From Fervidobacterium thailandense (GTDB taxonomy: Bacteria > Thermotogota > Thermotogae > Thermotogales > Fervidobacteriaceae): a DNA stretch of 64,000 nt. The translations under genes were made by a program, and so were the position numbers. Every line of letters starts with the position of its first letter. Position 1 is the first letter of the stretch. Below the pieces are notes generated by a model. It worked only from the letters and a program-made list of their open reading frames with translations, was not told where the DNA came from and ran no database searches. The stretch spans positions 186,001 to 250,000 of the forward strand of contig NZ_LWAF01000001.1 of NCBI RefSeq assembly GCF_001719065.1. The letters are read 5' to 3'. This document shows positions 17,422 through 43,396 of this stretch, piece by piece.

Positions 17422-18330
17422 ATGTCAAAGGATACAAAGAAAAATGTTAAGAGTTCTGGAAAGGGTGTAAAGCACTACCTCAAAGAAACGCTAATCACGT
17501 TCCTGTACGCAATCGTAGCGGCAACGATAATTAGGTTGTTCGTTTTTGAAACAATGCTCGTTCCCACACCATCGATGGTCCCCACGATTAACGTGGGGGA
17601 TCGTCTTTTTGTTGAGAAGATTACTTACTCCGCAAGGGAGCCGGAAATCGGGGAAATTGTGGTTTTTTACACCCCATTTCCTGATGAACGAGCGCAAGCG
17701 ATGCTCCGTGCATTCGATAAATTCATGGACATGTTTTCTCCTCGCGAGTTCAAGGGTTCGGTCAAGTACGTAAAAAGGCTCGTTGCGAAAGAGGGAGATG
17801 TAATCACACTAAAGCAGGTCGATGGAAACTGGAAGCTCTTTGTCAATGGAGAAATTCCTGAACATTTGAGAAACGTAAATTACGAACCAGATGGTATATT
17901 CAAGTATCCAAAGCTTTGGGAATACATGGCTAAGGCTTCGGAACTCAAAAAGAAAAATTTGTCTGAATACCGTCAGTTTCTTTTTGAGATAGCGCAACAA
18001 GAGGGCACTGGGTTAGCGAACATTATTTTCAGCGTGCTTGGTGGATTTGATCCCGTACCGTTAGGAATAGACTATTCCGTTTTCATTGAAAGGTACCTAA
18101 AGCCCGCGGGCATAAAGTTCTCGGATTACGTATGGGAAGAAAACGGGCAAGTGTACGTGAAAATTCCGAAAGGTTTCTACTTCTTCATGGGTGACAATTC
18201 CCCGCAAAGTCTCGATAGTAGGTTCTTCGGGTTTGTACCGAAAAAGGCAGTCATCGGCCGTCCCATCCTACGTATCTGGCCGTTCCGAAGTTTCGGGCCG
18301 ATACAACCAATTCCGAACGATTCGAAATAA
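17422..18330 (+). CDS. lepB: Signal peptidase I
   Basis: LepB cleaves signal peptides at the outer face of the inner membrane. A cytoplasmic basic N-terminus leads into one membrane segment (~24-42), then the catalytic Ser51 in VPTPSMVPTI and general base Lys118 in KYVKRLVAKEGD. Box E reads GDNSPQSLDSRFFG, with Pro-Gln where GDNRxxS is common. A long insertion at about 125-240, between the catalytic Lys and box E, makes the protein 302 residues and is probably an extracytoplasmic cap. It is the last gene of the ffh operon, followed by a strong terminator. Confidence 0.95.
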   Translation: MSKDTKKNVKSSGKGVKHYLKETLITFLYAIVAATIIRLFVFETMLVPTPSMVPTINVGDRLFVEKITYSAREPEIGEIVVFYTPFPDERAQAMLRAFDKFMDMFSPREFKGSVKYVKRLVAKEGDVITLKQVDGNWKLFVNGEIPEHLRNVNYEPDGIFKYPKLWEYMAKASELKKKNLSEYRQFLFEIAQQEGTGLANIIFSVLGGFDPVPLGIDYSVFIERYLKPAGIKFSDYVWEENGQVYVKIPKGFYFFMGDNSPQSLDSRFFGFVPKKAVIGRPILRIWPFRSFGPIQPIPNDSK

Positions 18331-18340
18331 GTAAAAGAAA

Positions 18341-18371
18341 AAACCGGCAGGCAACTGCCGGTTTGATTTTT
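18341..18371. terminator. Bidirectional rho-independent terminator
   Basis: A perfect 10-bp stem AAACCGGCAG (18341-18350) / CTGCCGGTTT (18355-18364) with GCAA tetraloop, followed on the plus strand by GATTTTTT. A-rich sequence on the left supplies a T-run on the minus strand, so it can end both the ffh-lepB operon and the convergent envelope operon. Confidence 0.9.
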
Positions 18372-18387: not shown

Positions 18388-19041
18388 CTACTTTTTAGCT
18401 TCGGAAATTACTTCGTTCAGCATCTTGAAAAAATCAACACCGTTCTTTCCGAGTTCCTCTATTGCTTTCGAAATCTCTTGGTCCGCCATCACAGTCTGTT
18501 TGGCAGCCTCCACTGCACCAACGGGATCGAATACCAGTAGAACCGTCGTGTAAACTAAACTTCCAACCATTTCCTCCCAAACTGCGTACACGTAGGCTCC
18601 GGAAACTTTTGCTTCGGAGAATAACTCCGTTACACGCTTGTACGCGTTAACTGCCACGGAGGTTACTCTGTCTTTGTCCTTAATCGCTTGAATCTGACCT
18701 TCCACGAGTTGAGCAAACGTCTGGAGCCTTGTTTCGAAATACTCCGCCAATTCTTTGTACGCATTGATTTTTGCCTTTTCCCGGGCCCTTACCTTATCTA
18801 TCCCTCCACTGATGGCTTGGCCTGTAAATACAATTAACCTACCACTCTCGTAGAGCTCCCTCACTCTTTTTTCAAATGCTGCATTCCTTTCAACCAAGAC
18901 CGCTTCCTTTGGCAACGGCCAAATCTTTACACCATCGGCTGTCACCCAATTTCCTTTGGGCGGTTGGTTTACGAGCATAAACACGGCCCAAGCCAAGGCA
19001 ATTACGGCTACGATCAGTAGTGTATCTTTCAAAGAAGGCAC
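18388..19041 (-). CDS. Membrane-anchored LPP20-like paralog A of the envelope operon
   Basis: 217 residues: one N-terminal membrane segment (~6-24), then VTADGVKIWPLP, a helical region containing INAYKELAEYFETRLQTFAQ and VAVNAYKRVTELFSEAKVSG, a strand pair AYVYAVWEE...VLLVFDP, and a C-terminal helix GKNGVDFFKMLNEVIS. All of these recur in the proteins encoded at 20302-23004 (N-terminal part) and 23082-23774, so the three are paralogs. The Ala/Lys-rich helix plus strand pattern resembles the LPP20 domain; the assignment is by eye. Start GTG 19041 follows AGGGGGG by 8 nt. It is the last gene of the operon, directly before the terminator. Function unknown; an envelope or toga-associated role is inference. 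Confidence 0.72.
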   Translation of the reverse strand: MPSLKDTLLIVAVIALAWAVFMLVNQPPKGNWVTADGVKIWPLPKEAVLVERNAAFEKRVRELYESGRLIVFTGQAISGGIDKVRAREKAKINAYKELAEYFETRLQTFAQLVEGQIQAIKDKDRVTSVAVNAYKRVTELFSEAKVSGAYVYAVWEEMVGSLVYTTVLLVFDPVGAVEAAKQTVMADQEISKAIEELGKNGVDFFKMLNEVISEAKK

Positions 19042-19083
19042 ATTGCTCACCCCCCTGAACTTAGTCACCTTCTTACATTTGTA

Positions 19084-20265
19084 TCAGAAATACACGCCAA
19101 GTTGTACGTACATACCACTTTCGCTTTCAAGGTACAGTGTGTATCCTCCACCGAGGAAGATACCAAACTGAGGATTAAATTCGTACGTGAGGATACCGCC
19201 TCCGAACAAACCAAAGATGTACTTTTTGAACCTTCCACTTTCAAGATCAGCCAGTCCTAAAATACTAAGACCGGCATTCACAGAAGCTCCTATCCTTCCA
19301 AGTTCAAGGAACTTGAAGTTAGCACCGATGTTGAAATAAACAGGGGTCTCGCTACCAAACGTTCCCAAAAACGTTCCCAATCCAAGATAGAATCCAACCG
19401 GTGTTCCTTCCATAGCGTCTGACCAAACACTTAAGCCTAATCCCGGCATGCCGTAGAACAGTGAGAGTGCTAAACCGCCGTGTCCGGGGAGGGTAGGATA
19501 CTCCTGAGCCACATCGTACACGTTTGGACGTTCGCCGTACATGAACTTCGTCACAAGCGTTCCTTCGGCCTTGTTATAGCTGACAACTTTCACGTAGCCA
19601 ACACCAGTGTCTGTCTCGATTTGAAAAATATAACCAATCCTCGCCAGTTTTGGATCCACACCTGCAAGCATCACCGTGTCTCCCGTGACCGATTTTACGT
19701 ACGCTTCGAGTTTGAAAGTTTCCCGTAAAAATGACAGAATGCTCCCTGCCGTTGCTTTCAGTGCGTCCGAGATAGCCTTTTGCGCACTCTCCTTTGCACT
19801 ACCGGAAGATTGCAAGAACTTTGAAGCCAACAGTTCTCCGTTTTCAACGTTGTACAGCCTTATTGTGTAACGCGAGATTGCGTTGTATCTACTGTTCTTG
19901 CTGTCCCAGGATGCCGAAAGTTCTTCAAGTGACAATAGGAGTGCGTACTTTGAACCACCAAGTTTTCCGATTTCTATTGCTTCCGAAACGCCGAACTCGG
20001 ACAAGTTTCTTTCTTTCATTATCGCTTGAATGTCCGACCTTGAAAAGAGTTGGAACCTTCCAAGTTCGAGCGCTTGTTCCTCGAGTATCGCCATTAGCGA
20101 ATCGATGGCATCCATGTTCCAACCAGTTCCAACTTTTCCAGGTAAGATAACGAGCTTGATTTTCTCGGTGACCGTTATCCCTCCAGCACCGTACACGGCA
20201 ACGTTTGCGAGTATGAAGGTCATTAACAGCAAAACAACCGTTTTCTTAAAAGGAAGAGCCCTCAT
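19084..20265 (-). CDS. CsgG-like exported protein with C-terminal beta-barrel-like domain
   Basis: Residues 1-27 are a signal peptide without a lipobox Cys, unlike curli CsgG. Residues ~30-220 match a CsgG/HfaB-type domain: KIKLVILPGKVGTGWNMDAIDSLM, LSRSDI-like FSRSDIQAIMKERNLSEFGVSEA, KLGGSKYALLLSLEEL, TIRLYNVENGELLASK, and SAKESAQKAISDAL. Residues ~250-393 are Gly- and aromatic-rich alternating segments (GGLALSLFYGMPGLGLSVW, FYLGLGTFLGTFG, YIFGLFGGGILTYEF) ending in Phe, the look of an eight-stranded outer-membrane barrel. ATG 20265 has TTGGGGGTG before it. It lies between two paralogs of an anchored LPP20-like family. It may be an outer-envelope pore or anchor; that is inference. Confidence 0.78.
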   Translation of the reverse strand: MRALPFKKTVVLLLMTFILANVAVYGAGGITVTEKIKLVILPGKVGTGWNMDAIDSLMAILEEQALELGRFQLFSRSDIQAIMKERNLSEFGVSEAIEIGKLGGSKYALLLSLEELSASWDSKNSRYNAISRYTIRLYNVENGELLASKFLQSSGSAKESAQKAISDALKATAGSILSFLRETFKLEAYVKSVTGDTVMLAGVDPKLARIGYIFQIETDTGVGYVKVVSYNKAEGTLVTKFMYGERPNVYDVAQEYPTLPGHGGLALSLFYGMPGLGLSVWSDAMEGTPVGFYLGLGTFLGTFGSETPVYFNIGANFKFLELGRIGASVNAGLSILGLADLESGRFKKYIFGLFGGGILTYEFNPQFGIFLGGGYTLYLESESGMYVQLGVYF

Positions 20266-20301
20266 GAATTTCACCCCCAAAGTTTTTGATTGGCCCCATG
20301 A

Positions 20302-23004
20302 CTAACGTGAAACCTGATAACTAAAATCTGCGATCTTCCTTATTTTCAGAGTATCCAAACTCTTCAAAATTCTATCAAGTTCTTCGGGTGGAGCTGCGGT
20401 CTCAACTACTAACTTTGTGTCAACCTTTTCAACTTCTTTCAAGTCAGGTAGGCGTAACCTCAAGTTGTCCAGTAGTATCGAACCGTACGTCGCTCGTTCG
20501 AGATTAAAAGTGTACCTGTAAACCTTCTTAATGTCGACATTTTCAAACATCAGAGAATTAATAATCGACTGCACGTACTCTGCAAACTTTTGACTGCCCA
20601 CTGTTTTTGAGAGTGCCACTTCTGGTGTGGCACCTGAGTTCACATCTTCGAAACGATGCGCAGCCACTATGTTCCCTGTGACAGAATCGATCACCTGGGT
20701 TGTTGCAAGCAACCTAACAGAATAAGTCTTGTAATCGGAGACGTACGTCGATGGAGCATTGACGGTCGTGTAAAGTACGTAACGCGCCACCGATAGTGCC
20801 GCTAATCGGCCCAAGGTGGAAAGGCTGTAGCCGGTTCTTTTTTGTTCTTCAAGAAGTTTTCTTGAAAAGTCTTTGGAGACGAGTTTTATACCAGCCCCAA
20901 CAAGCTTTTCAACCATCTTCGACTCGACATACCCGGAAGAATCTCCCTCGACTATCAACAAGGCAAATCCTGTCGGTGCTCTCCTTAAAGCATCAACCAG
21001 CGCGTTTTCAAAATTTTGCCTGTCTATCTTGGCATCGACAACCACGAAGTAGAGACCTTGATATTCACCCGAGGCGTTTATTTCGTAGTCCATTGCGCCA
21101 ATAACTTTGCTAACGATGTATTCGTCAATGGGAACGTCCAAAAGCTCCCTATCTTTTCCGATGAGTATCTCAGCAGCCGCTTTCTTGACTATTTTCATCA
21201 AAGCTTCCTTGGTTGCCCGCTCTCGTAAAACCTTGGTATCACCTGGAAGTTTGGTAGTACCGCCGGCAAGAATTCCAAGCATCCTCTCGTCCCTGAATGT
21301 TACTCTCAAAACATCAGGGTTTACCGATACTCTCTTCGGTGTCCAAGTAGCGGTAACTACACCACCTAAGGAAACTGTGGTTCTGGAATCAATAGCCTTA
21401 ACCACGCACGAAAATTCCGAAGTCCCGTCCTTGAGGTTAACAATACCTGGTACCTCGACTTTCTCGCCGTACACGCGTAGTGAGGAAACTGCCGGATCGC
21501 TTACCTTAGCGGTTAACCTAACTTGTTCACCGAGGAACACCTCGTCGCCACCACGTACTTCTATGCGTATATCCTGCGAGTACTCTCTCAGTCTCTCCCT
21601 ATCAATCATTCCATCTGGTAAGTCCGCAACGTACGTCTCAAGTTCGTTTATCATGCCGGCAACTTTTAGCGCACTCTTTTTGTCGTTTACATTTTGAGAA
21701 TTTATGTTCTTTATCATCTTTTCAACATCCGCGTAAGCTGACTTTATCCTAGAGATGGCCAGGCCGACTTCCTGTGATATCCTCGGTGGGAATTTGTACT
21801 TTTGTAGCAACGGTTCGTATCTATCAACGATTTTCTTTGCGTTGAAAATCATCCTGGAATCAAGCAGAGATTCGGCAAGTTTAACGGAGACGTATGTTTC
21901 AAAGGTAGCTCTCGTATTCTCGGCATCGACCAGCGCTTCAACTTTTGCGTAGTACCTATTGCTGACCACCTTTTTCTCAACCGTTCTGAAAAACACGTCA
22001 ACGAATTCGAATTCTGACTTCGTTTCGACTATCTTTTCGTAAATCACCTGAGATCTTTCCTGGAAGTACTTTCCGGTGACTACCTGGTTAATGAGTTCCT
22101 GAAGCTTTGTCGTAGTTCTAACGTCTACATAAAGTTGCTCGGAAAGGTTGAGCAAAGCATTTTTCTTCGCCTTTTCTTCGGCTTCAAGTTCCGTCACACC
22201 AAAAGCTTCGCCTACTCCCCTCAAAGCGGTTGCGAAAGTGGGCTGTGAAATAACAGGCTCTTGGACAGGAGGTTTTGGTTGTCCAGTTGCCGGTGGCGTA
22301 CCGGGAGATGGTTGTTGAACCTTGCCATCGGATAGTGTTGGTTGTGTTGCCGGAGCCATAGGGGTTCCCTTCAGCGCTTCATCGATAACCGCATCCAATG
22401 CTTTAAAGAAATCGACGTCCCACTTCCCAAGTTCTGCTAAGGCCTCGTTTACTTCACTTTGCTGGGCAGCGAACTTTCTCGTTTCCTCGGGGTCGTAAAC
22501 GAGTAAAACGTAGAAGCGGTAATTGTTGTCAACTTTGACTCTCCAGGAAGCGTAAACGTAGGCGCCTTGTAATTTTGCATTTGCGAACAGTTCGGTTATA
22601 CGCTTGTACGCTGAAAGCGAAACACTTTTTAACTCGTTCTGTTTTTGACCTGAAATCTGAACGGAAGAAAGTTGACCTTCAACAAGCTGCGCAAAAGTTG
22701 ACACCTTAGCTTCGAGGAATTCTGCAAGTTGTTGATAGGCGCGCAACTTTGCAACCTCACGATCTTGCGGAGTGCCTGACCAAACAGTTTCCCCAACGAA
22801 AAGTAGTAAACGGTTAGATTGTGCAAGTCTCTTAACCGATGCAGTTTTCGAACCATCAATCTGAATATTGTCCGCGCTATCGGGTAATTTCCAAATCTTC
22901 ACACCGTCCGCTTCGATCCACTTCTCACTTGGCTTTGGCATTAAAAAGAAAACCGCAAGTCCAACGACCGCGACTGCAGCTAAGATTAGGAGCAATTTTT
23001 CCAT
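20302..23004 (-). CDS. Large membrane-anchored multidomain paralog B (LPP20/FlgT-like)
   Basis: 900 residues. A membrane anchor (3-21) precedes a ~190-residue domain paralogous to A and C (EADGVKIWKLP, RAYQQLAEFLEAKVSTFAQL, YKRITELFANAKLQGAYVYASW, ELGKWDVDFFKALD). A Pro/Thr/Gln-rich linker occupies 214-250. Residues ~258-362 look like an LPP20 domain (GVGEAF, AEEKAKKNALLNLSEQLYVDV, NRYYAKVEALVD). Then come a helical stretch, an Ig-like strand region (~470-560), a second ATKEALMKIVKKAAAEIL module, and a C-terminal CsgG/FlgT-like part (GFALLIVEGDSSGYVESKMVE...QVIDSVTGNIVAAHRFED). ATG 23004 follows GAGGAGGTG. It is the central scaffold-like protein of the operon. Function unknown. Confidence 0.75.
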   Translation of the reverse strand: MEKLLLILAAVAVVGLAVFFLMPKPSEKWIEADGVKIWKLPDSADNIQIDGSKTASVKRLAQSNRLLLFVGETVWSGTPQDREVAKLRAYQQLAEFLEAKVSTFAQLVEGQLSSVQISGQKQNELKSVSLSAYKRITELFANAKLQGAYVYASWRVKVDNNYRFYVLLVYDPEETRKFAAQQSEVNEALAELGKWDVDFFKALDAVIDEALKGTPMAPATQPTLSDGKVQQPSPGTPPATGQPKPPVQEPVISQPTFATALRGVGEAFGVTELEAEEKAKKNALLNLSEQLYVDVRTTTKLQELINQVVTGKYFQERSQVIYEKIVETKSEFEFVDVFFRTVEKKVVSNRYYAKVEALVDAENTRATFETYVSVKLAESLLDSRMIFNAKKIVDRYEPLLQKYKFPPRISQEVGLAISRIKSAYADVEKMIKNINSQNVNDKKSALKVAGMINELETYVADLPDGMIDRERLREYSQDIRIEVRGGDEVFLGEQVRLTAKVSDPAVSSLRVYGEKVEVPGIVNLKDGTSEFSCVVKAIDSRTTVSLGGVVTATWTPKRVSVNPDVLRVTFRDERMLGILAGGTTKLPGDTKVLRERATKEALMKIVKKAAAEILIGKDRELLDVPIDEYIVSKVIGAMDYEINASGEYQGLYFVVVDAKIDRQNFENALVDALRRAPTGFALLIVEGDSSGYVESKMVEKLVGAGIKLVSKDFSRKLLEEQKRTGYSLSTLGRLAALSVARYVLYTTVNAPSTYVSDYKTYSVRLLATTQVIDSVTGNIVAAHRFEDVNSGATPEVALSKTVGSQKFAEYVQSIINSLMFENVDIKKVYRYTFNLERATYGSILLDNLRLRLPDLKEVEKVDTKLVVETAAPPEELDRILKSLDTLKIRKIADFSYQVSR

Positions 23005-23043
23005 TTTAACACCTCCTCGGGGTGCTGAAAAACGACAAACAAT

Positions 23044-23070
23044 GAGCCCTCTGCACATTGCAGAGGGCTC
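23044..23070 (-). terminator. Intra-operon hairpin (attenuator or RNA-processing site)
   Basis: A perfect 12-bp stem GAGCCCTCTGCA (23044-23055) / TGCAGAGGGCTC (23059-23070) with a 3-nt loop lies in the 77-bp gap between paralogs C and B. On the transcribed strand it is followed by ATTGTTTGTCGTTTTT, a loosely T-rich tail. It could act as a partial terminator or as a stem that protects the 3' end of the C message, giving more C than B, CsgG and A. Confidence 0.65.
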
Positions 23071-23081
23071 TGCTGGTTTAA

Positions 23082-23774
23082 TTATTTCCTCTCCATCGGC
23101 GTTCCCTTAGTTGCTTCTTTTAGTACAGCGTTCAGGTTCTCAAAGAAATTGATACCCTGCTTCCCAAGTTCGTCGATGGTCTGCTTGACCTGCGCGTCCA
23201 TCTCGATGATCTTCAAAATCATACCGGGATCGTAGACCAGAAGGACATAGGTTTCAACGACGTTTCCTTTCCTCACTTTCCAACTCGCGAATACGTAAGC
23301 ACCCGAAATCCTCGCATCCGCCAGCAGTTCAGTCACACGTTTGTAAGCGTTAACGGAGGCACTGACAATGTTTTGCTTGTTTCCGGAGATCTGAACGTTT
23401 TGTAGCTGTCCCTCAACAAGCTGGGCAAAAGTCTGCACCCTTGTGTTAAGGAATTCAGCAACGTTTTGGTAAGCACGGATCTTTGCGATTTCCTTATCTT
23501 GGGGTGTACCTGCTCCAATAGCGTACCCCTCGAACGCGATGAAGTTTCCCTTTTGAACCATAGATTTGACTGACGCAGCTTTCGATATGTCGTAGTTTAC
23601 ATCCTCAGCGTTGTCCGGAAGTTTCCAGATCCTTACTCCATCGATCTCCAGATACCTCTCCTTAGGTCCGCTGAAGAACATGAAGAACAAAACCGCGCCG
23701 AGAGCAACTACACCAACACCAACAAGAACCCAAATCAGAATGTCTTGATCCGCTGAACCTTTCCTGAACCTCAT
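23082..23774 (-). CDS. Membrane-anchored LPP20-like paralog C, first gene of the envelope operon
   Basis: 230 residues with one strong membrane segment (~14-37) after a basic start, then LEIDGVRIWKLP, the helix KIRAYQNVAEFLNTRVQTFAQLVEGQ, VNAYKRVTELLADARISGAYVFASW, YVLLVYDP, and the terminal ELGKQGINFFENLNAVLKEATKGTPM. The same elements in the same order occur in A and in the first 215 residues of B, including the KGTPM end shared with B. GGAGGTG lies 6 nt before ATG 23774. A weak promoter, TTACAA-16-TGTAAT, can be read around 23819-23846. Function unknown; a periplasmic-facing anchored domain is predicted. Confidence 0.73.
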   Translation of the reverse strand: MRFRKGSADQDILIWVLVGVGVVALGAVLFFMFFSGPKERYLEIDGVRIWKLPDNAEDVNYDISKAASVKSMVQKGNFIAFEGYAIGAGTPQDKEIAKIRAYQNVAEFLNTRVQTFAQLVEGQLQNVQISGNKQNIVSASVNAYKRVTELLADARISGAYVFASWKVRKGNVVETYVLLVYDPGMILKIIEMDAQVKQTIDELGKQGINFFENLNAVLKEATKGTPMERK

Positions 23775-24480
23775 ACCACACACCTCCTGTACAGAGTGGT
23801 AGACTATTCTGTGGATTACAAAAACCAGCCTAACTCTTGTAATTGTTCAAACATGACTAAAAGCTGTACTTTGTTCACCTTACTTTCTTTCCGTTGATTT
23901 CAACGATTACTGGATTACATACCTCATTGATTTCATACTTCATTAAAGCTGAGAGAAAGCAACTGAAAGATCTTTGGACTGAATGAGTGATTAATGTGAG
24001 GGAGTACTATAGGTCATCTTACGAGAAAACCTGCAATTGCATACTTTAAAAGACCACATTATGAATTCGCAAACCGGACTCGGAAAAATCTGCGGAGTTT
24101 TCGACTAACCGTTTGCGGTCGGTTGAGCACATTCTTCTACTCTATCGAACAAGCTCACAACACCGAGTTTCGTGATTAGAACAACTGCATGTTCAATTTT
24201 TCATCAGTAATTTAGACTGCGGTTGTACCTTTTTCGTTCAAGTGAGGCTCGAAGTGCTTAGATTTTCATGATGGTAAAACCATCCAGCCATCTGTGTTTA
24301 TAATAAGAAGAAAGCATGTCCAGGGGAAGCAGTTCTAAGCAGCGCAATACCTAAAGTAATAATTTGTTACTCTACAGTAATGTATTCTTTATTTAAACAC
24401 ACCTGACTTGTGATATTATAGGAAAGAACCGTGCTAAAACATGCGGTTCCGAAATGTTTTTTGGAAAGGAGAGGTTTAAC
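23775..24480. other. Long intergenic region with no convincing gene
   Basis: About 700 bp separates the divergent envelope operon and the DUF1292 gene. I see no intact gene. Short open stretches exist, for example plus strand about 23998-24178 (58 codons, no start or ribosome site) and minus strand about 24106-24204 (ending ITKLGVVSLFDRVEECAQP before a stop), both bounded by stops, as in decayed coding sequence. A stem GATGGT/ACCATC lies at 24270-24284. The right end holds a TATTAT -10 candidate (24414-24419) and a hairpin GAACCG/CGGTTC (24426-24449) followed by a T-run just before the ribosome site of the next gene. Confidence 0.5.
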
Positions 24481-24819
24481 ATGTTTGAACACGAACATGA
24501 GCACGAGCATGAGCACATTGACGCATTCACACTCACGGACGAACAAGGGAACGAGCACCATTTTGTCAGGCTTGGTGAGATTGAAAACAAAGGAAAGCTC
24601 TACTGGGTTTGTGAGGAAATCTTCGTTGACGGTGAGGAGATTGTGGATTTCGGAGATACGTACCTCTTTGTGAAAACTGAAGACGAAGAAGGTAATGTCT
24701 ACCTTGATTCCGTTGACAATGAGGAAGAGTTCAACGAAGTGGTGAGGATCTGGGAAGACATGATGGGTGATGAGGACTTTTTCATCGATATCGATGAGGA
24801 GGATACCGAAGAGAACTGA
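24481..24819 (+). CDS. Acidic DUF1292 family protein with His-Glu repeat N-terminus
   Basis: 112 residues. The body, AFTLTDEQGNEHHFVRLGEIENKGKLYWVCEE and FVKTEDEEGNVYLDSVDNEEEFNEVV, matches the small acidic DUF1292 (YrzB-like) family of unknown function. The start is unusual: MFEHEHEHEHEHID, an alternating His-Glu tract encoded by a near-repeat of GAGCAC/GAGCAT units, which could bind metal. The C-terminus is very acidic (DIDEEDTEEN). AAAGGAGAGG precedes the ATG. A small leader hairpin lies upstream. It stands alone before a tRNA gene with its own promoter. Confidence 0.78.
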   Translation: MFEHEHEHEHEHIDAFTLTDEQGNEHHFVRLGEIENKGKLYWVCEEIFVDGEEIVDFGDTYLFVKTEDEEGNVYLDSVDNEEEFNEVVRIWEDMMGDEDFFIDIDEEDTEEN

Positions 24820-40937: not shown

Positions 40938-42059
40938 ATGCCTAAAAAGGACTACTACGAAATACTGGGCGTTCCGAGAAACGCCTCAGATGAGGAAATA
41001 AAGGCTGCTTACAAGAGACTTGTGAAGGAATGGCACCCTGACAAACAACCCGAGGAACGCAAAAAGTACGCAGAGCAAAAATTCAAAGAAATACAAGAAG
41101 CCTATGAGGTGCTTTCGGATCCTCAGAAGAGAGCTATGTACGATAAGTTTGGCTACGTGGGCGAAGGTATCCCATACGAGTACCAATACACGAGTAGTGG
41201 TGGAGGTTTTGGATTCGAAGACATTTTCCGTGACTTTTTCAACGACGATATTTTCAACATATTCTTCGGAGATCAGAGAACGCAATCGCGCACACGTACG
41301 ACCTCAAGACGCACTCCTCGCAGGGGAGAGGATATCCAACTGGACGTGACTGTCACCGAGCGTGAGGTTTTTACAGGAAAGAGTGTTACCATTGAATACG
41401 AGAGGTACGAAGCTTGCGACCATTGTCGAGGCGAAGGTGTTGAACCTGGGAGTAGGAGTGTCACGTGCTCAAAGTGCCACGGAACGGGGGTTGTCAGGGA
41501 AGAAAGGCGCACACCGTTTGGTGTATTTATCAACCAGTATACTTGTGATGTTTGTGGCGGTACGGGAACAGTTCCGGGAGAGGTGTGCCACGTTTGTCAT
41601 GGGACTGGGCGCGTGAGAAGGCGAAGTTCTCTGATCCTCGATATTCCCGCCGGAGTTGAGGATGGTCAAGTGTTCAAACTCCCGCGTCGTGGTAACGCTG
41701 GACTGTACGGTGGTGAGTACGGAGATCTATACGTACGGGTCCACGTGCAAAGAACATCTGGACTGAGACGCGAGGGTGATGATATAATCGTTGATGCGAC
41801 CGTTGACTACGTTACGGCTATACTTGGTGGAAAAATAAAGGTTACGCTACCAAACGGGGAACTGGTCGATGTCGAGATTCCAGCTGGCACACAGCCAAAC
41901 GAGCGTATAACGGTGCGTGGCAAAGGATTCCCAAATCAACGAACAGGGCGCAGGGGAAATTTGATTGTGAACGTGAATGTGGAAATACCAAGGAGAGTTT
42001 CCAAAAAGGAAAGAGAACTGCTCGAAGAAATCGCGCGGCTCAGGGGTGTTGAAATTTGA
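40938..42059 (+). CDS. dnaJ: Chaperone protein DnaJ
   Basis: A full-length type I DnaJ (373 residues): J domain with HPD at 33-35 (KEWHPDKQ), a Gly/Phe-rich region ([16 protein letters not shown]), a zinc-finger domain with four CxxCxGxG-type repeats ([32 protein letters not shown]), and the substrate-binding C-terminus ([22 protein letters not shown]). ATG 40938 lies behind GAGGTG. The downstream gene starts inside its stop codon region, showing tight coupling. Confidence 0.97.
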
Positions 42060-43396
42060 AGCTTGAACGTTCAAAGTTGAAAGCACGTAATCGATACAAA
42101 GCATCAGTCTCACAAGTTAGGAAGCTGATAATACTCCCAGTCATTATTGTGCTGGGGGCTCTTTTTTTCCTTTATTCGATCTCGTACGCGGATAGAACCG
42201 CCAGTTTGAAAGGTAGTTCCGAGAACGAAGCACCGAAGAACGATGTGCTTGACGTATCCTACACCGACTCGGGCGCAAAGGAGGTAAGGTTTCACAAGAC
42301 CTTACCAACGGCAAAAGGTTTCATTTCAGTCGGAACATGTTACACTAGTGACGAGTTGAAATACCAGCTTTTGGTGGTCTTTTTTGATTCTAACTTCGTG
42401 GAGCAGTGGAGATTTGAATTCGGAGACACGGGTGATGAATGGGCTTTCGATGTTGTCGAGGATGAGGGGTACATCATCGTTGGGGTCACAGGCTCAAAAA
42501 AGTACGGTGTGCGCGGACGATACGACGTAGTAGTTCTGAAGTTGGACTATGCTGGAAAATTACAATGGTACCGACTTTACAGCGGGCCGGACTGGGATAG
42601 GGCTTATAAAATCGTGAAGATGCCAACTGGCTACGCGCTCGCCGGTGATAATTATTTGAAAGGTTTCGATGTGAGTACGAACTTTGGAGAACACGACTTC
42701 TGGCTTGTTGCAATAGACAAAAACGGAAACAAGCTCTGGGATCGTAGCTTTGGAGGACTTAAATGGGATAGGGCGTATGCGCTAACTTTTGTTGACGATA
42801 GGAACTTACTTGTAGTCGGGGGTTCGAGTAACTCATTCAGCGACGGTAAGCGATACGACAGTTACATTGTTGCGTACGACCTGAGTGGAAACTTGGTTTG
42901 GAGATTACCCTTGGTCATCAAAAACGGAAGTGTGTGGGTTACCGATTTAAGGACGGCCAGCGGTTCTATTTACGCCGCCGGGTACGTTGTCGAATTCGTT
43001 GCTGACGGTGGAAGAACCAATGGTGTAAGACCTGTTGAAAGAGGCTTCTTGGCAAAGATCACCTCAGCCGGTAAGTTGGAATACTTTAGGGTCTTTGGCC
43101 AGGATATAAGGTTGCATGCGTTTGATTTACTGGAAAAATCCGAAACTCACGAAACTTTTGCTGTGGCTGGATACAAGGATGTGTCCGGTTCGAAAAGGCC
43201 TTGGCTTGCGAGTGTGACCATCGACGTACAAGGAGAAATATCCCAAAATACTGTCCCGACTGAGATGAACTATGAGAACAACTACGGTATGTTTTTCGAT
43301 GTACAAGTTGTACGTAACCCCAAAAGTTTGATTTTGAGTGGAAAAAAACTCGTGAACGGCAAATTCGTAGGTATATTACGTCGGATAACCTTCTGA
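42056..43396 (+). CDS. Membrane-anchored beta-propeller-like protein
   Basis: 446 residues: a basic N-terminus, one membrane segment ([20 protein letters not shown], about 24-43), then an extracytoplasmic region of at least five repeating ~50-60 residue units, each with a pattern like [10 protein letters not shown]...[16 protein letters not shown] or [24 protein letters not shown]. This is typical of delta-60/WD-like propeller repeats. Function is unknown; such proteins often mediate binding at the cell surface. TTG 42056 overlaps the dnaJ stop by 4 bp, with GGGGTG at good spacing, so it is probably heat-shock co-expressed. Confidence 0.75.

Follow-up and report, generated by a model that had tools for sequence, protein, structure and literature searches.

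A four-gene block of Fervidobacterium thailandense with LPP20-, FlgT- and CsgG-type domains as a candidate trans-envelope scaffold

How the detached outer membrane of Thermotogota is held and crossed is an open question, for which a block of four genes in Fervidobacterium thailandense offers a concrete candidate bridge from the inner to the outer membrane. Here we ask what this block, found in a window of 64,000 nucleotides (the whole stretch of DNA that was analysed), could build. An earlier note had described it as three paralogous anchored proteins, here called A, B and C, with an embedded CsgG-like protein. We read the gene set as encoding, in the Fervidobacterium family, a trans-envelope scaffold with FlgT/LPP20-type domains, a reading to which we give a probability of about 0.48. 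It would widen the reach of the FlgT/LPP20/CsgG domains to a deep-branching phylum, in a barrel-fused form of which we know no description.

The four genes run in the same direction on the minus strand in the order A-B-CsgG-C, the co-directional C-B-CsgG-A run reported before. Start codons were picked by ribosome-binding site, the best being ATG 23774 for A, ATG 23004 for B (whose frame in the list of open reading frames runs to 23058), ATG 20265 for the CsgG-like gene and GTG 19050 for C. The features of the locus are:

23082..23774, minus strand: gene A, 230 aa, N-terminal TM anchor (MRFRK...DILIWVLVGVGVVALGAVLFFMFF) and LPP20-like domain
23044..23070, minus strand: terminator-like hairpin between A and B, with compensatory changes, 9/9 syntenic loci
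20302..23004, minus strand: gene B, 900 aa, multi-domain
19084..20265, minus strand: CsgG-like protein gene, 393 aa, cleavable-type signal, no lipobox
18388..~19050, minus strand: gene C, ~220 aa, TM anchor and LPP20-like domain
18341..18364, no strand assigned: bidirectional terminator common to C and lepB

The block is flanked by a convergent lepB gene (17422-18330) and by a DUF1292 gene (24454-24819). The gaps A/B, B/CsgG-like and CsgG-like/C measure 77, 36 and 33 bp. No defence system was matched by PADLOC, and no homologues were found in scans of viral contigs. The earlier description of one unit has to be qualified in one respect, as the hairpin (23070-23044) splits A from B. This hairpin has a T-rich tail; in its alignment 89.9% of the cells pair, four pairs have both partners changed, and the pairing falls to 46-59% when the opposite strand is shifted. 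Since a partial terminator is conserved behind A, gene A is probably made in excess.

The kinship of the three anchored proteins is the firmest element. All five landmark motifs named earlier are present in A, in C and in the N-terminal part of B (B-N), and BLASTP over about 200 residues gives 53% identity for A against B-N (E 7e-70), 43% for A against C (E 1e-52) and 41% for B-N against C (E 4e-49). With identities of 41-53% and similarity far above chance, it is certain that A, the first ~211 residues of B, and C are true paralogues; the earlier claim of paralogy thus stands, and the absence of detectable similarity that could have spoken against it was not observed. In a tree, C forms one clade (support 100/100), the Fervidobacterium A groups with the A of the g4/g5 genomes, and B-N lies beside C; a single origin of B-N is compatible with this tree, which does not establish one. 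The A family is related by hhalign to the LPP20 domain of B (E 1.1e-5), the one route by which A and C connect to LPP20, and A, C and B-N carry what can be recognised as a divergent LPP20-like domain. Sequence searches of the PDB with single and profile queries returned only FTT_1539c (4qvr, E 0.017) for the A family, the remaining matches being at chance level. A further, distant A-type protein occurs in some g2 genomes (L143:6435-7091, L144:7098-7745), near a two-component system and a radical SAM-like gene.

The window's A, B and C each have a short N-terminal start followed by one hydrophobic helix, and a lipobox Cys is lacking in all three. The B protein of g4/g5 is devoid of B-N, and its N-terminus carries the lipobox FSC(D/N); in family f8, most A-type proteins are lipoproteins, encoded in tandem triples away from B and the CsgG-like gene (e.g. 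L072:5223-7430, L073:5919-8080). Thus anchoring has, to judge from these N-termini, changed between lipid and helix within these proteins.

Gene B comprises the following parts:

22372..23004, minus strand: B-N, TM anchor and LPP20-like domain, paralogue of A and C
22249..22371, minus strand: Pro-rich linker, from sequence and pLDDT 20-40
21880..22242, minus strand: second LPP20 domain, PF02169, orthologues exceeding the Pfam cut-off
21250..21567, minus strand: Ig-like beta-sandwich, from model strands and weak Ig/Fab-type Foldseek matches
21010..21280 (approximate limits), minus strand: FlgT_N-like domain, PF16548 in orthologues G004 (above cut-off) and G009 (weaker)
20500..20988, minus strand: CsgG-like domain, hhalign to the CsgG-like protein family, E 3.8e-5 over 117 columns

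The window's A, B, C and CsgG-like proteins all fall under the Pfam cut-offs for LPP20, FlgT_N and CsgG, and the domain calls were therefore made on orthologues. For LPP20 (PF02169, cut-off 25.9 bits), window B scores 17.6 bits, below the cut-off, while the B orthologues of G005, G008, G011, G014 and G019 reach 27.1-34.3 bits, above it; in all, 10 of 13 B orthologues match the family (best E 8.7e-7). FlgT_N is matched by 5/13, with 31.9 bits against a cut-off of 28.8 in G004, a score below cut-off in G009 and no match in window B; the G004 match sits at a different place, directly ahead of B's CsgG-like domain. Pfam FlgT_M and FlgT_C gave no match at E<=1 in any member of the B or CsgG-like families. 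When ten domain slices were compared by hhalign, two of the 45 pairs were related, namely A with B-LPP20 and the C-terminal part of B with the CsgG domain, so LPP20-like and CsgG-like domains are the two types that recur in the make-up of the operon. The earlier partition of B into a Pro-rich linker and LPP20-, FlgT- and CsgG-like parts is borne out by Pfam in orthologues (LPP20, FlgT_N) and by hhalign (CsgG-like). B-N itself is missing from 8/13 aligned orthologues.

AlphaFold2 (AF2) models were built from six sequences for B and two for the CsgG-like protein. The model of B has a pTM of 0.32, and its Foldseek matches, mainly of Ig type and swamped by antibody Ig domains, say nothing on the other domains of B. 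G019 encodes a lipoprotein of 1365 aa (L146:3287-7384) that starts with a B-like LPP20 part and has five fn3 domains, and G055 a 670-aa protein with a VWA domain and two LPP20 domains (L147:680-2692), adjoining a B-C-terminal-like gene.

The CsgG-like protein starts with a classical signal sequence that contains no lipobox Cys, followed by three regions:

19711..20160, minus strand: CsgG/FlgT_M-like domain, PF03783 in 14/14 homologues, AF2 pLDDT, Foldseek
19531..19710, minus strand: small beta domain in the FlgT_C position (inferred), AF2 model and Foldseek
19087..19500, minus strand: predicted C-terminal outer-membrane beta-barrel, from composition, alternation and terminal F

The CsgG family (PF03783) is matched by all 14 homologues (best E 5.6e-9), the window protein itself scoring 16.2 bits against a cut-off of 20.8, and a search of its own whole genome with the CsgG model found none at E<=0.001. 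With two sequences, AF2 predicts the alpha/beta CsgG domain with pLDDT mostly 55-89, peaking at residues 110-180, and the remainder weakly. The best PDB match by Foldseek is FlgT (3w1e, E 5.6e-9, 267 columns), followed by the LPHT ring (8z5n), CsgG (2.3e-6), GNA1162, PelC and LpoB; a rigid full-length superposition fits poorly (TM 0.29). In the final 138 residues, Gly makes up 20% and aromatic residues (FWY) 18%, the hydrophobicity alternates (compared with column shuffles, z 3.7 on the KD scale, with no significance on the interface scale), and 13/14 homologues end in Phe, as Thermotogales porins likewise do (PMC3387000). From these three features we infer that the C-terminal region is a small outer-membrane barrel; the structure model, with pLDDT below 50 there, neither supports nor denies it. 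The earlier picture of an inner-membrane-anchored and outer-membrane composition agrees with the TM anchors of A, B and C and with this predicted barrel.

CsgG-like domains were also seen in other settings. In G018 one is fused to fn3 and propeller-like repeats in place of the barrel (L080:67-2316), and a 446-aa protein of the window (42056-43396), with no Pfam match, shows 30% identity over 265 residues to this fusion. Another lies within an 815-aa open frame (G019:C11:1298-2044), and a g5 genome has two more paralogues of CsgG/FlgT_C/barrel-like make-up directly upstream of its CsgG-like gene (L083:3603-6559).

Among relatives, A-B-C lies beside lepB in all eight genomes of Fervidobacterium type whose contig is intact (G000, G002, G006, G009, G012, G015, G016 and G017). 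The CsgG-like gene is within the operon only in G000, G006, G009 and G015; it is far from it in G012 and G016, and is absent from the complete genomes G002 and G017, which retain A-B-C. Operons holding the CsgG-like gene have the long B with B-N, and the others a B of ~740 aa without it. In g4/g5 a short B directly follows the CsgG-like gene, and A is elsewhere. Adjacency of B and the CsgG-like gene thus occurs in two lineages in opposite order, B-CsgG-C (g1, part of g2) and CsgG-B (g4/g5). Because the CsgG-like gene changes place or is absent and A stands apart in g4/g5, the four-gene set is not obligatory. Scattering of the genes, which the earlier note had named as adverse to its proposal, is therefore seen in part, for the CsgG-like gene and for A and B in g4/g5, but A-B-C is constant by lepB in Fervidobacterium-type genomes. 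Neighbours of the loci read include rplS-lepB, radical SAM, glycosyltransferase and recN genes, among others. Two candidate flagellar locations were rejected: the g4/g5 loci L087-L091, where neighbour sizes had led us to guess that the A-type gene lies in a flagellar operon (Pfam on L089 gave wecB/glycosyltransferase/plsY), and an A-type match near flhA in G005 (L142), whose neighbours, named from sequence, are recN-like and ligA-like.

G001 belongs to the same genus, and its flanking proteins are for the most part 90-95% identical; all four genes are gone from it, and 362 bp separate lepB from the DUF1292 gene. Next to the shared terminator, the scar (L139:9855-10216) holds what is left of the 3' part of C, decayed and frameshifted, which indicates that the block was deleted in G001, not gained in the window. 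In G001, then, the block was lost as a unit, and this natural deletion provides a comparator for the candidate bridge.

The scaffold that we propose would be arranged as follows. A, B and C would be held in the inner membrane by their single N-terminal helix, exposing LPP20/SHS2-type domains in the periplasm. B would extend from there through its flexible linker, second LPP20 domain, helices and Ig-like stretch to an FlgT-like N-M pair. The CsgG-like protein would sit in the outer (toga) membrane via its predicted C-terminal barrel, with an FlgT/CsgG-type platform hanging into the periplasm. CsgG, PelC and FlgT domains self-assemble, and for this reason the CsgG-like end of B would most likely pack on this platform in a mixed ring or collar, so that B could bridge the membranes. 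A and C, with a single LPP20 domain each, may add or cap further units, A being in excess.

This arrangement is supported by the observed paralogy and the two hhalign pairs, by CsgG in 14/14 homologues and the FlgT/CsgG/GNA1162/PelC/LpoB Foldseek matches, by LPP20 and FlgT_N above cut-off in B orthologues, and by the barrel signature with its parallel in Phe-ending Thermotogales porins. Gene order and block loss add the adjacency of B and the CsgG-like gene in two arrangements, the joint deletion in G001 and the conserved A/B terminator. Against it count the CsgG-like gene's absence (G002, G017) or distance (G012, G016), the small alignments behind the models with their low barrel pLDDT and B pTM, the mainly Ig-type matches of B, and the unmatched FlgT_M and FlgT_C.

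The main rival, possible but doubtful in our judgement, is a flagellar accessory ring, in which the proteins would encircle the rod at its passage through the loose outer membrane as a counterpart of the H-ring or basal disk, comparable to FlgO/FlgP/FlgT in Vibrio or to FlgP in Campylobacter. The domain types are alike (LPP20/SHS2, FlgT_N, CsgG-like), and FlgP, Lpp20 and FlgT have a common fold (PMC12222027); in Campylobacter, however, the ring-forming version of this fold has a beta-hairpin insert (PMC12222027), at the place of which the B-N model has two helices (pLDDT 75-87). A-type proteins occur in 31 of 103 genomes of the class, all 31 with FlhA, and in 0 of the 23 FlhA-less genomes (hypergeometric p 7e-5 by genome), but by genus this association is not significant (p 0.11). 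Genus g3 of f1, the only informative FlhA-less clade, is without A, B and the CsgG-like gene; yet the genes are also missing from most FlhA-positive Thermotogota families, G001 dropped the block and retains FlhA and FlgH, and not one of the loci that were read is placed in a flagellar cluster or among flagellar genes with flgO/flgP. The flagellar-base structure suggested earlier therefore fits the domains and the FlhA co-occurrence, while gene location, the families without the genes and the G001 loss argue against a core role. More speculatively, and rather improbably, some Thermotogota could have evolved their own flagellar or envelope collar, with FlgT in effect split and rebuilt as a barrel protein plus an inner-membrane LPP20/FlgT bridge, coupling the inner membrane mechanically to the loose toga membrane; we know of no barrel-tipped FlgT-like protein.

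A secretion portal, in which the CsgG-like protein would serve as the export channel of the outer membrane and A, B and C as its partners in the inner membrane and the periplasm, seems quite unlikely. The structural similarity of this protein to CsgG and PelC (Foldseek) and its barrel signature would suit such a portal, but it has no lipobox, its barrel would form a separate C-terminal domain where CsgG has inserted hairpins, and the loci read show no candidate substrate and no curli gene neighbour (csgA/B/E/F); to our knowledge, LPP20/FlgT partners are not part of the curli or Pel systems. Very improbable is an LpoB-like activator of peptidoglycan synthases or an envelope-stress sensor, as LpoB similarity (Pfam in 3/14 homologues, E 9e-5, and Foldseek matches) is outweighed by stronger matches to CsgG and FlgT, no penicillin-binding protein gene was noticed in the neighbourhoods, and LpoB, a small lipoprotein, has no barrel.

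We return to the trans-envelope scaffold to compare it with known systems. Literature searches found no paper linking LPP20, CsgG and FlgT, and no relevant one linking Thermotoga and CsgG; of the earlier statement that no system of this composition is described, the unusual composition holds, but the parts belong to described domain families. FlgT of the Vibrio H/T-ring (3w1e; 8z5n LPHT ring) is the best structural match of the CsgG-like protein, and in B a FlgT_N-like domain precedes a CsgG-like (FlgT_M-type) one, the order seen in FlgT. Here, by contrast, two proteins are involved, one predicted to end in a barrel and the other anchored in the inner membrane and enlarged by LPP20 and Ig-like domains; Pfam FlgT_M and FlgT_C are unmatched, and the loci read lie outside flagellar clusters. 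With FlgP and Lpp20, lipoproteins of LPP20, SHS2-type fold, the set shares the LPP20 domain (in A, C, B-N and the second domain of B), and some relatives of A in the class are lipoproteins in tandem triples; the window proteins differ by TM anchors in place of lipoboxes, and the model by a helical insert in place of the FlgP beta-hairpin. The alpha/beta domain is that of the CsgG/PelC/GNA1162/LpoB superfamily, whereas the CsgG-like protein has a signal peptide, is not a lipoprotein, carries its own predicted C-terminal barrel, and has no curli, Pel or PBP neighbours at the loci read. Finally, although the genes are unrelated to those of the Thermotogales OmpA1/OmpB toga anchor and porin, with no SLH or coiled-coil part and a barrel of only ~138 aa, the proposed scaffold would share with that pair an inner-side anchor combined with a Phe-ending outer-membrane barrel.
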